From contig JAAELY010000348.1 in the NCBI GenBank assembly GCA_024226335.1, positions 1-45,113 on the forward strand: DNA of 45,113 bases, read 5' to 3'. Numbering within the stretch: position 1 is the stretch's first letter; the number at the start of each line of letters is the position of its first letter. The notes beneath the pieces were generated by a model. That model saw only the letters and a program-made list of their open reading frames with translations, searched no databases and was not told the origin of the DNA. Shown here one piece after another: positions 22,625 to 27,161 of the stretch. The stretch comes from a bacterium. GTDB taxonomy: Bacteria; Myxococcota_A; UBA9160; SZUA-336. Position numbers and translations under genes: made by a program.

Positions 22625-23293
22625 TCAGGAAGACTGCCTTCTCGGTCGCGCACGGGTTCGAGTGCTCGACGCCGGTGATTGCGATCGCTCGACGAGTTCC
22701 TGTGCCGCCGCGCGAATCGCAACCTCCATCAATTCGATCAGGGACTCGACATCCGTCGTCTGGGGATGGAGTTGGGATGCGATGAAGATTCCGTCCATCT
22801 GGGCGATGACGAGTTCGGACAGAAGCCCCGCAGCCTTCTTGCGCTTCCGCGAATCCTCGATTCCGGTGAGAAATTGCTCCAACGTCGCACTCCAGGCCTG
22901 CTTTGCGCGTTGCCGGATGCGCTCGACAGCGCCGCGAACCTCATCGGCGGGATCGCGGCGTTCGAGTGCGAGCAGAAGGAGCAGACGCAAGAACTCGGGC
23001 CGATCGCGGAACAACGCACCCAGCACGCCGGAACGCCCCGCTTCGGCGACTCCCTCGTCCTGAACGAATTCCTCGAACCAGCGTTCGGCAGCGCGCTCCA
23101 TGACCGCGGCGACGAGGCCCTCTTTGTCCCCGAAATGCCAGTAGAGAGTCGGCGGCCGCACCTTGGCCCGCTCGCAGATCGCCGCAATCGTGGCACCGGC
23201 GAACCCCCGCTCGCTCATCAGAGCGGAACCGGCATCCAGGATCCTCTCCCGGTTCCGCTGGCCGTTCTCGATGTGAGTGACAGGGGAAGCCAA
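22625..23293 (-). CDS. TetR-family transcriptional repressor of the hpa operon
   Basis: 222 residues. An N-terminal TetR helix-turn-helix is clear: RERILDAGSALMSERGFAG, then TIAAICERAKVRPPTLYWHF. The C-terminal helical ligand domain is variable and the last ~15 residues are basic and Ser-rich. The only usable start is TTG at 23293; an in-frame TAG lies four codons upstream and no ATG precedes the HTH. A perfect inverted repeat (23296..23315) sits immediately upstream, so the repressor probably binds its own promoter and controls the four catabolic genes behind it. An aromatic intermediate is the likely inducer, by inference. Confidence 0.88.
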   Translation of the reverse strand: MASPVTHIENGQRNRERILDAGSALMSERGFAGATIAAICERAKVRPPTLYWHFGDKEGLVAAVMERAAERWFEEFVQDEGVAEAGRSGVLGALFRDRPEFLRLLLLLALERRDPADEVRGAVERIRQRAKQAWSATLEQFLTGIEDSRKRKKAAGLLSELVIAQMDGIFIASQLHPQTTDVESLIELMEVAIRAAAQELVERSQSPASSTRTRARPRRQSS

Positions 23294-23295
23294 GG

Positions 23296-23315
23296 CCTTT
23301 AGCTATCACTAAAGG
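23296..23315. promoter_or_regulatory. TetR operator: perfect 7-bp inverted repeat
   Basis: CCTTTAG (23296-23302), a 6-bp spacer CTATCA, and CTAAAGG (23309-23315) form a perfect 20-bp palindromic site two bases upstream of the TTG start of the TetR gene. Its size and location match TetR-family operators. Binding there would also block ribosome access, or mark a near-leaderless promoter. Confidence 0.7.
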
Positions 23316-23378: not shown

Positions 23379-26300
23379 TCAGAGTGCGAATTCGGTCCGT
23401 CCGATGATTTCCATCTGAAGATCTTGCTGCATGCGCGTGTAGTAGCCGGTATAGCCGGAGACGCGCACGATCAGATCGGGATAGTGCTCTGGATTCGCCA
23501 TGGCATCTTTGAGAGTGTCGGAATCGACCATATTGAATTGGAGTTGCATTCCGCCGCTGTCGAAATAGCTGTCCACGTAGTGGGCGATCATGGCGATGTT
23601 ATTCGCATGGCTGCGATTGCTCGAGAACGCCAGGCGCACGTTCAGCGTATAGCTATTGTCGGCGGTGCGAGGGTCGATGCTTCCCACATCGATCAGATTG
23701 TCGAGCAGGTTCTTGCTCGCGATGGGACTGGGGGTGAGCCCCGAAGTAAACGGCGTGTTCGCAAGCCTTCCCGATGGGGAGGCCCCGGAGACCCGGCCGA
23801 AGACCGTGTGGTTGTTATTGGTCCGATAACCCGTCGTGTACGGACCCCCGCGATTGTTGCTGTGCCGATTGAAGAACTCGCGAATCATCCGGGTCACGCG
23901 ATGGGCCATCTCCCGAGCCTCTGGATCCCCGGAACCGAATTTCGCCGCTGAGAACCGAGCAGAGGCGTAGATCCGCTTGTAGCGTCTGTCCTCGTCACTC
24001 CCGGGCACCTCGCCTCTGAAATCGTGGTCAACCGCATCCATCAGTTCGCGAAACCCGATTGTCTTGCCGTCCTGACAATGGGTGCCGTCGAAAACCAGCT
24101 TCTTGATCGCCAATAGCGAATCGACGACATCGGAAAGGCCAATGAACGAGGTCCCCGAAGAGTTGTACCTGGCCCCTCCCTGGGTCATCCCCCGGCCTGA
24201 CTCGATGCACCCCTCCAGCAGGGCGGAATAGAGAGGCGCCGGTATGACTTCGGGATGGATCTTCACCAGTTCATGGGAGATCTCATCGATCAGCGGCTCG
24301 TAGATGAAGTAGAACTGTCGCTCGAAAGCCGCAAAGAAGGCTTCAAAGTCGTTGAAGCTCTCCACCTCACCGGTGGTCGGAGTTCCCAGAGGTTCATCCG
24401 CGGGCGACCGGTTCCACTTCGAGTGGCGACCGTTGTTCAGAGCCACCTCCAGCGGCACCATCAGATTGGAATCGATGTCACCGGTGGCGGCGAAGTGCTT
24501 ACCGGAGATGACCGGCTCCACGCAGCCGCAGGGAACCCAGTCGCGGACATCCTCCAGAGCCCAGCCGTGCTGGCACAGCCCCTCGATTACCTGTCGGTCA
24601 TTGTGGATCGCCGGGGTGCCAGAGGTGATGTAGTTCACCTCACAGACTCGCCTCAGATAGGTCTCGCTATTCACCCCCTTCATGTAGCGAGCATCCATAT
24701 CCGGATCGTCCAGCGATAGCATCTCGGTTAGTTTGAGGATGATGTAGGTCATGTCGTTGACCGCATCCTCCCCGGAAGGTGTAACGCCGCCGACGGTGAT
24801 GGAGGCCACGCCCGGCGCACCTGAGTTCTGCCAGGAGGCGATGGTGGCTGCCGCGAGACGGTGACTGGTCAGTCGCAAGAAGAAACAGCCCACCAGTTCC
24901 AGGGCTCGCTCGAGATAGGCTTCCCGCTCCTTCTCGCCACTTATCCGCTGCATGTCCGCTTCGAAATAGGGTTGCAGGATCTGATCCAGTCGACCGACGC
25001 CGATGTCATCGTCCATGCTGTCCAGTCCGATACCAATGAACAGAATCCAGATCGCCTGGAGAGCTTCGTGGAGAGTCGCGGCCGGCTCGTTGCACAGCTT
25101 GCGCAGAATGCGTTCGATCTCTTTCAGTTCCGCCCTTCTCGAATCCGATCCGGCTTCCGCGCGAGCCTCCAGGCCGACCTGGTCGGCCAGTCGGCGGGTA
25201 TAGAGCGAAACGCCTTCCAGTGCGGTGTCCATCGCGTCGAGAGCTTTCAGCTTCTCGTCTCGAGTGGCGTCGTCGAGAACGGCATCCTTTTCGAACTCCG
25301 TCTTCTGCCGCTGGATCTGCTCGCGAAACCCCGGCAGGCCCTTGCGCACCGCCGTGCCGAAACCCGGGCTACCCGGGTTCAGCGAAACCAGCCCCCAGGG
25401 AATGAGGAAGAACATCCGGTCGTAGATCCGGTCCGCGCGCACTGATTCACCCCGCTCTCGCCTGGCGCGCAACCTCTGCTGCCAGACGTAAGGCAGGTGA
25501 CGATTCATCCAGAACGGGAGGACTTTCTTGTGCAGGGTCCGGGCGGTCTCTGGCGTGATCGCAAAAGGATCCAACTCTCGCTGGTCAAGGGTGTTGAGCT
25601 CGCCCCAGATGGACCAGCCGATGGTGAAAGGATGGTTCACCGCGCCACATATGGGGTTGGGCGTCAAGGTCCCAGCCAGCAGATCTCCGTTGCGCAGTAG
25701 AGGCTCCCGGTGGCGCATCACGTGACAGAACGCTTCGGCCGTGCGCTGGGCGGGATCCCAGGGCGTACCATCGTTGCGGTTTTCGTAGCCGTTCTCCTGA
25801 AAGAAGTCGGTCAAGAGTTCGCCGTACTCGGCGGTGACCTCGGGAAGCTCTTCGAGGTGTTCCTGCTTGAATCGCGCCAGGCGTGGAAAATCCCCGAGGG
25901 AGGAGTCGGCCAGATAGGCCTCTTTCAGCCAGTGCACGCCCGAATCGACCGGCTCGGCCCTGAGACGGTCGGCGGTACGGGCTTCGCGCATACGCCGCTC
26001 CGGTTTACCGGCCTTCGCGGCGACTTCGAAAGCGACGGCGCGGTTCTTTCTCTTCTGCTCCTCAATGGCAGAGAGGCCTCCCCCCGGATCGACGAGGCTC
26101 ATCAGATAGCTGTAGTAGCCGAAAACGGCAGGGTTCCCTTCGAGCCGTACATCGGACGCGAGGAATTTTCGCACTTCGTCATCCGGTCCGAGCTGTTCCA
26201 TGGCCGCAATTTCGTCCTCAGAAGCGAAGACTAACGTCGCCTCGGCCTCTTCAGCGGATCCCTCGCCTCTTTGGACCCGGATCTGTCCATTGCGGATCAC

Positions 26301-26501
26301 GACGACGATGTTCACTGACCCGTCTTCGGTCCGAAGACAGACGACAGCATCGATCGGACAAGGCCTGGCGGCGGCAGACTCCGGCTCCCCGAATAACGCA
26401 TCGCGTAACTCGGGAACCGAATCGAATAACCCGGCGACACCCGTGAGATTCAGAAACAGCCGCTCTCCCGGGGTAGCTATGTCCTCTGCCTCGCATTCCA
26501 T
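23379..26501 (-). CDS. Glycyl radical enzyme (PFL-like) with an N-terminal SCP2-like domain
   Basis: 1040 residues, some 150-250 longer than usual glycyl radical enzymes. Residues about 10-140 look like an SCP2/sterol-carrier-type domain: a VVVIRNGQIRVQRG strand pair, ATLVFASEDEIAAM, then ASDVRLEGNPAVFGYYSYL. The PFL-like barrel follows from about 190. The active-site cysteine is Cys660 in CGCVEP, with Glu662 two residues on, the Cys-x-Glu arrangement of lyase/dehydratase/decarboxylase members such as CutC. The C-terminal radical motif RVSGYTGYYTRMQQDLQ places the glycyl radical at Gly1016. A radical-SAM activase is required, but none is in the window. Substrate unknown; the SCP2-like part suggests a hydrophobic or CoA-linked ligand (inference). 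It lies 85 bp upstream of the hpa operon, on the same strand. Confidence 0.9.
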   Translation of the reverse strand: MECEAEDIATPGERLFLNLTGVAGLFDSVPELRDALFGEPESAAARPCPIDAVVCLRTEDGSVNIVVVIRNGQIRVQRGEGSAEEAEATLVFASEDEIAAMEQLGPDDEVRKFLASDVRLEGNPAVFGYYSYLMSLVDPGGGLSAIEEQKRKNRAVAFEVAAKAGKPERRMREARTADRLRAEPVDSGVHWLKEAYLADSSLGDFPRLARFKQEHLEELPEVTAEYGELLTDFFQENGYENRNDGTPWDPAQRTAEAFCHVMRHREPLLRNGDLLAGTLTPNPICGAVNHPFTIGWSIWGELNTLDQRELDPFAITPETARTLHKKVLPFWMNRHLPYVWQQRLRARRERGESVRADRIYDRMFFLIPWGLVSLNPGSPGFGTAVRKGLPGFREQIQRQKTEFEKDAVLDDATRDEKLKALDAMDTALEGVSLYTRRLADQVGLEARAEAGSDSRRAELKEIERILRKLCNEPAATLHEALQAIWILFIGIGLDSMDDDIGVGRLDQILQPYFEADMQRISGEKEREAYLERALELVGCFFLRLTSHRLAAATIASWQNSGAPGVASITVGGVTPSGEDAVNDMTYIILKLTEMLSLDDPDMDARYMKGVNSETYLRRVCEVNYITSGTPAIHNDRQVIEGLCQHGWALEDVRDWVPCGCVEPVISGKHFAATGDIDSNLMVPLEVALNNGRHSKWNRSPADEPLGTPTTGEVESFNDFEAFFAAFERQFYFIYEPLIDEISHELVKIHPEVIPAPLYSALLEGCIESGRGMTQGGARYNSSGTSFIGLSDVVDSLLAIKKLVFDGTHCQDGKTIGFRELMDAVDHDFRGEVPGSDEDRRYKRIYASARFSAAKFGSGDPEAREMAHRVTRMIREFFNRHSNNRGGPYTTGYRTNNNHTVFGRVSGASPSGRLANTPFTSGLTPSPIASKNLLDNLIDVGSIDPRTADNSYTLNVRLAFSSNRSHANNIAMIAHYVDSYFDSGGMQLQFNMVDSDTLKDAMANPEHYPDLIVRVSGYTGYYTRMQQDLQMEIIGRTEFAL

Positions 26502-26579: not shown

Positions 26580-27161
26580 ATGAATCTTGCTCGAGTATTC
26601 TGTCTCGCGATAATTCTCATTCTCGTCCTGGTCGCGTCCGATTCTCGAGCCAAAACGGTGACCTATACACTCGACGATGTCGTTCTGGCGGAAAATAGCT
26701 CCCAGATGACGGGCAGCTTCACCTGGACTTTCGATGTCGGCGATTTCGAGAATGGCAGCGAGCAATTCATCTCCCTGGAAGTCCCCTTTACCCTGCATGA
26801 TCACACAAACCTGAAAAGCACCGTTGACGTCGGCAACTCCATCGAAATCACACTCGAAGGCAATGCTCACGACGACGGGGTCGATATTACACTCTTCCTG
26901 CTAGCGCCCCTGACGCCCTCGGCCTCTTCATCGCTCGATCTGGCCCGAAGCGAGTACGACATCGGCGGCAATGGGTTTCACGCTGGCTCGTTCCTCTCCG
27001 GAAGTATCTCGCCGATGGTCTCGGCCCCATCGCTCTCGGGGCCTGCCCTTTTGGCCCTCGCCGGACTGCTGCTGGCCATCAACGGGTACAACGCGCGGCG
27101 ATTTCACCTTGCCGGTGGAAGCGGGAACCGAACTGGGCCGATCGCTCCATCTCGAGGATGA
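26580..27161 (+). CDS. Exported protein with a C-terminal membrane-anchor/sorting-type tail
   Basis: 193 residues. Residues 1-24 form a Sec signal (MNLARVFCLAIILILVLVAS). The middle is a beta-rich domain of about 120 residues (TVTYTLDDVVLAENSSQMTG, later LKSTVDVGNSIEITLEGN) like many PEP-CTERM-associated secreted proteins. The C-terminus has PSLSGPALLALAGLLLAI, then NGYNARR, resembling the tripartite IPTL/PEP-CTERM type (polar-Pro motif, hydrophobic helix, basic end) but without a PEP, and with ~20 extra residues after the arginines. A TATAGT at 26527-26532 could be its -10. It is divergent from the glycyl radical enzyme gene by 78 bp. Function unknown. Confidence 0.7.
   Translation: MNLARVFCLAIILILVLVASDSRAKTVTYTLDDVVLAENSSQMTGSFTWTFDVGDFENGSEQFISLEVPFTLHDHTNLKSTVDVGNSIEITLEGNAHDDGVDITLFLLAPLTPSASSSLDLARSEYDIGGNGFHAGSFLSGSISPMVSAPSLSGPALLALAGLLLAINGYNARRFHLAGGSGNRTGPIAPSRG

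Follow-up and report, generated by a model that had tools for sequence, protein, structure and literature searches.

The window, a 45,113-nucleotide stretch of bacterial DNA, encodes a glycyl radical enzyme (GRE), here called P0001, that carries a domain of predicted SCP2 fold in front of its catalytic barrel. Among GREs this fusion is a genuine and new architectural variant, it is widespread, and the missing neighbouring activase has an ordinary explanation. In GREs, the glycyl radical is made by an activase, and the eliminases are the group of GREs containing CutC and HypD (PMC11574389). A literature search, with subscription journals mostly out of reach, found no paper describing a fusion of GRE and SCP2 domains, and the clade of SCP2-GREs, widespread among bacteria, is apparently undescribed. 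To our knowledge, the GRE eliminases characterised so far use small polar substrates, and the exceptions with hydrophobic substrates are the distant X-succinate synthases. A clade that may have hundreds of members, each a GRE fused to a lipid-carrier domain, points to new anaerobic radical chemistry on lipids, steroids or similar compounds, which would take place in sulfate reducers, syntrophs and related organisms. A further question is how a radical enzyme persists in a genome with aerobic oxidases, where it apparently relies on an activase encoded at another locus.

Architecture of the fused enzyme

The reading frame of P0001 begins with an ATG start and runs for 1040 codons on the minus strand with zero internal stops (Table 1). 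According to its Pfam matches, the product is a PFL-like GRE; it is an oxygen-sensitive radical enzyme. The Cys/Glu/Gly catalytic set is intact: the Cys660-Val-Glu662 motif and Gly1016 lie exactly where the original prediction had placed them and do not vary among 29 aligned relatives. The barrel begins after about 206 residues, and the DFPRL motif, into which the linker helices lead, was found in ten of ten SCP2-GRE members aligned. That P0001 is an artefact or a chance ORF was ruled out by its conservation and by dN/dS. In the comparison with its orthologue from genome G012 (82% identity reported for the pair, 68% in the N-terminal domain and 86% in the barrel), dN/dS was about 0.09 for the GRE part and 0.10 for the N-terminus; these values are approximate with dS near saturation, and at the sequence level they indicate purifying selection on P0001.

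Table 1. Position of the SCP2-fused GRE gene, its parts and the adjoining regulator gene in the window.
Feature	Position	Strand	Size or evidence
SCP2-fused GRE gene P0001	23379..26501	(-)	1040 aa
SCP2-fold domain (predicted), residues ~11-137	26091..26471	(-)	weak Pfam, profile vs PDB, AF2 + Foldseek
Linker helices, residues 138-206, into DFPRL motif (204-208)	25884..26090	(-)	AF2 model
PFL-like barrel domain, residues 207-902	23796..25883	(-)	PF02901, E 4e-121; TMt 0.93-0.94 to glycerol/propanediol dehydratases
Catalytic Cys660-Val661-Glu662	24516..24524	(-)	family-invariant; aligns with eliminase GRE Cys-x-Glu
Gly_radical domain, residues 919-1021	23439..23747	(-)	PF01228, E 7e-20
Radical-bearing Gly1016 (RVSGYTGYY loop)	23454..23456	(-)	invariant R1013, S1015, G1016, Y1017
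TetR-type regulator directly downstream of GRE	22628..23293	(-)	PF00440

An SCP2-like N-terminus had been proposed from strand pattern and motif, and the sequence evidence for it is marginal. PF02036 (SCP2) covered residues 43-126 of P0001 at an E value of no better than 0.025 and reached 15.3 bits against a gathering threshold of 21.3; on the N-terminus of the paralogue P0002, it likewise remained below the threshold (E = 0.0017, 19.1 bits). A profile built from 37 N-terminal sequences matched just three chains in the PDB, all SCP2, with E values of about 0.1, and a phmmer search of the PDB with the lone P0001 N-terminus gave zero matches. As the Pfam SCP2 scores are below the cutoff for the full protein and for each N-terminus, sequence alone cannot prove an SCP2 domain, and the proof needed structure. 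AF2 predicted the N-terminal domain alone with a pLDDT of 84.9 and the whole protein with a pLDDT of 86.9 and a pTM of 0.91; the order of elements in the modelled domain is a-a-b-b-b-b-a-a-b-a. In a Foldseek search against the PDB, 34 of 34 matches at E ≤ 0.001 were SCP2 proteins or alkylsulfatases. They included UbiJ, archaeal AF1534, human MFE-2 SCP2, SCP-2L, rabbit and insect SCP2, and alkylsulfatases, in which the relevant part is the C-terminal SCP2-like domain that they bear. Thus, the first approx. 140 residues of P0001 adopt an SCP2 fold in the predicted structure, as originally proposed, and an ordinary helical extension of a GRE is excluded.

The domain reached TMt values of 0.6-0.7 against free-standing SCP2 domains. 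Its fold is common to UbiJ, the SCP2 parts of the alkylsulfatase SdsA1/Pisa1 and of MFE-2, and SCP2 itself at 12-24% identity, but none of these lipid binders is joined to a radical enzyme. In characterised proteins, domains of this fold bind lipids or other hydrophobes, and in MFE-2 and the alkylsulfatases SCP2 is fused to a catalytic domain whose substrates are lipophilic. In an alignment of 37 members, many core positions of the N-terminal domain hold a hydrophobic residue in 90% or more of the sequences, as they would in any folded domain.

The barrel of P0001 is nearest to those of glycerol/propanediol dehydratases, CutC and HypD. The dehydratases (PDB 1r8w, 5i2g and 9rcp) share the barrel (TMt 0.91-0.94, 26-28% identity), the Cys-Val-Glu motif and the glycyl loop with P0001 but are devoid of the N-terminal SCP2 domain. 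HypD has the barrel fold and Cys-Val-Glu in common with P0001 and also lacks SCP2. The choline TMA-lyase CutC, an eliminase, occurs in a long form (PDB 9f3w, 1150 aa) that is N-terminally extended as well, but in this extension the profile matches GRE sequence itself and not SCP2. P0001 fell far below every cutoff of the NCBIfam GRE equivalogs for HypD (326 bits, cutoff 1100), CutC (324 bits, cutoff 1050), HpfG/HpsG, PflD-type enzymes and the indoleacetate and HPA decarboxylases. The 4-hydroxyphenylacetate and indoleacetate decarboxylase models yielded 184 and 226 bits, respectively, below their cutoffs, compared with 376 bits for the dehydratase type. The X-succinate synthases (benzylsuccinate synthase TutD/BssA, MasD), GREs that act on hydrophobic substrates in the same kinds of anaerobes as the SCP2-GREs, have no SCP2 domain and are much more distant, with scores of 123-135 bits as opposed to about 299 for the best dehydratase. 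Pyruvate formate-lyase (PflB) was rejected as an assignment; P0001 has a single Cys followed by Val-Glu in place of the Cys-Cys pair of the PflB active site. At the positions aligned to His164, His281/Ser282 and Asp447, on which glycerol dehydratase (GDH) relies, P0001 has Pro376, Asp/Asp and Gly674, and the main clade of SCP2-GREs has kept the His164 equivalent alone. As these residues are not conserved in P0001, its reaction need not be dehydration.

Distribution and phylogeny

When 84,980 genomes of named species were scanned, 424 related stretches came up. These are pattern-derived candidates, of which only the best 80 were kept for inspection; the N-terminal domain was present in all 80. 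Their taxa are mainly Desulfobacterota and syntrophs, accompanied by Spirochaetota, Actinomycetota, Myxococcota, SAR324, Eremiobacterota and others, and most SCP2-GRE relatives are metagenome-assembled. Within the phylum, nine of 379 genomes, the host included, bear SCP2-GREs. The host genome encodes a second one, P0002 on contig C4, which is 39% identical to P0001 including the N-terminus, and an ordinary GRE on contig C227. In a tree of the GRE domain, all fused proteins (88/88) fell into one clade with a FastTree support of 0.993, and the 14 unfused GREs were all placed outside it. The fusion is a monophyletic family and not a one-off. The fused clade envisaged in the original prediction thus exists, and the close homologues all have the N-terminal domain.

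The nearest unfused relative of the clade is a GRE from genome G356 (L052:8928-11525, minus strand). It lacks the catalytic Cys (VVNGSP for GCVEP) and has PVSGH for RVSGY, and zero activases were found within the 20 kb examined. Judged by these motifs, it is possibly a GRE pseudo-enzyme.

P0001 belongs to a long-branched subclade of five members (support 1.0) together with its G012 orthologue and the proteins of loci L053, L054 and L055, which are 55-59% identical to it. The subclade differs from the main clade at 35 type-specific positions in all. Pro376 replaces the His aligned with GDH His164, an NAG motif has become an acidic DDD (498-500), and WSMSNH has become RTNNNH (893-898), giving Arg893. 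These exchanges indicate that the pocket of the subclade is probably remodelled and more acidic. Different pockets suggest different substrates, and the subclade probably acts on another substrate than the main clade. At the L053 locus (L053:90-4038), an SCP2-GRE and an activase share a contig of 4.1 kb that is recorded as Mycobacterium pinniadriaticum; a gene GC content of about 60% hints that this contig may be a contaminant.

The missing activase

No activase is adjacent to P0001, and tblastn with six activases produced just a frame-overlap artefact. This 47-aa match at 23380-23520 is not a remnant of an activase gene but an alternative frame of the GRE 3′ end, which matched because of an overlapping ORF in the query. 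The stop codon of P0001 is followed by about 85 bp and then the TetR gene, at the place where its closest relatives carry an activase. The activase directly adjoins the GRE in L053 and L054 and is one gene away in L055. An activase gene lies no more than 1.4 kb away at 56 of the 80 loci of relatives. Lone copies are nevertheless fairly common: 14 of the 70 informative loci have no activase although their sequence extends at least 3 kb to both sides. The host genome contains exactly two activases above the cutoff, each beside one of its other two GREs on C4 and C227. The description of the enzyme as one without an activase therefore applies to this locus but neither to most relatives nor to the genome.

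Since most relatives have an adjacent activase and the genome has two, P0001 appears to have lost or been separated from its partner rather than to be activase-independent. The C4 activase and its orthologue from genome G281 are together sister to the activases of the subclade itself, with a support of 0.82. The simplest reading of this relationship is trans-activation, and P0001 is likely to be activated in trans, most probably by the C4 activase. Both same-class members of the subclade, P0001 and G012, are without an intact adjacent activase, so the enzyme could be rarely activated.

The G012 activase (L035:11234-11973) starts in place, but its match ends at about profile position 197 of 293, and approx. 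120 bp of unmatched sequence extend from there to the contig end. This may reflect a truncation, an insertion or an assembly error. In a Desulfosudis MAG (L074:4977-11841), two tandem SCP2-GREs flank one activase, a layout consistent with a single activase serving both.

Genomic context and host

Neighbours of P0001 in the window include genes for an HpaB-type hydroxylase, a LigB dioxygenase, an aldehyde dehydrogenase, a nitronate monooxygenase and an FMO-like protein, which bears out the oxygenase-rich neighbourhood noted at the outset. None of the genes of this aerobic aromatic-type cluster was found beside any relative examined. Because no relative shares the HpaB/LigB neighbours, we treat their link to the GRE as incidental. 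The TetR of the window is not a member of the TetR cluster whose genes lie upstream of other SCP2-GREs. Just upstream of its start, a perfect 7-bp inverted repeat (CCTTTAG-N6-CTAAAGG, 23296-23315) was read by eye; it is a candidate operator that would part the TetR/aldehyde dehydrogenase/LigB/HpaB unit from the GRE gene. On the other side, upstream of the GRE, a divergent gene (26580-27161) encodes a protein of 193 aa with no Pfam match, which ends in a hydrophobic segment and a basic tail resembling a PEP-CTERM-type sorting signal.

Recurrent neighbours in the main clade are TetR genes (36 loci) and activases (54 in one cluster). They are joined by 3beta-HSD/OleD/HpnA-like and classical SDRs (17 loci, in tandem in several), long-chain-fatty-acid-CoA-ligase-like genes (nine loci) and aldehyde ferredoxin oxidoreductase (six loci). 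These surroundings are suggestive of lipid-like chemistry and constitute the main support for a lipophilic substrate. The lipid-type genes are not universal among SCP2-GREs, and the window locus is without them. At L126:11846-13687, an epimerase/3beta-HSD-like protein and a classical SDR are fused into one protein of 614 aa, and the product of the following gene bears weak likeness to PigE and to long-chain acyl-ACP reductase.

The host genome encodes five COX1-superfamily proteins, and a search of it for class III ribonucleotide reductase found none. From this gene content, the host can probably use oxygen or nitrogen oxides for respiration.

Proposed function and alternative explanations

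With architecture and clade established, we infer the chemistry and the substrate. We hold with moderate confidence that P0001 is a radical eliminase of a dehydratase-like kind whose SCP2 domain binds or presents a lipophilic substrate. A radical-SAM activase acting in trans, likely the one of the C4 locus, would make the radical on Gly1016, which would then pass to Cys660. The resulting thiyl radical would abstract hydrogen from a substrate that bears a hydroxyl group or a similar substituent, and Glu662 would serve as the base, leading to a 1,2-elimination. The substrate would have a hydrophobic tail or ring system; the SCP2 domain would bind this greasy part and supply or orient the molecule at the barrel. 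A broader reading, which we offer tentatively, extends this to all SCP2-GREs as a functional class, in which a fused carrier presents membrane-derived, long-chain or polycyclic lipids, possibly in acyl-CoA- or glycerol-linked form, for radical elimination, with the window subclade as a second, specialised substrate class. Equally tentative is the corollary that such a radical lipid-processing route occurs widely among sulfate reducers, syntrophs and bacteria related to them.

Alternatively, the SCP2-fold domain might be structural or regulatory, promoting oligomerisation, docking of the activase or tethering to a membrane or partner, while the GRE itself turns over a small, polar substrate. 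Such substrates are used by its nearest characterised relatives, the window-type pocket has gained acidic and arginine residues, CutC 9f3w already provides another N-terminal extension, and the N-terminal domain has evolved more quickly than the barrel (68% versus 86% identity between P0001 and G012). Nevertheless, we consider this explanation rather unlikely, as characterised SCP2 folds bind lipids or hydrophobes and the fusion is kept in every clade member examined; the hydrophobic core positions of the 37 N-termini argue weakly in the same direction.

Placing the GRE in an anaerobic branch of the adjacent aromatic-degradation genes, as a decarboxylase or C-S/C-N/C-C lyase of an aromatic or hydrophobic acid, would account for its HpaB, LigB and aldehyde dehydrogenase neighbours and for the Cys-x-Glu motif, which occurs in GRE decarboxylases and lyases too. 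This seems improbable given that the decarboxylase models score well under the dehydratase type and that the neighbour cluster was found beside no relative examined; moreover, a TetR gene with its own upstream palindrome looks like part of a separate transcription unit. We give just as little credence to P0001 being a decaying relic that has lost its activase, lies in aerobic surroundings and has ceased to be activated, even though the locus lacks an adjacent activase and the activase match of the closest orthologue is incomplete. The frame is intact over all 1040 codons, the catalytic residues are invariant, dN/dS is low against an orthologue from another family of the class, and lone SCP2-GRE genes recur at one in five of the informative loci.
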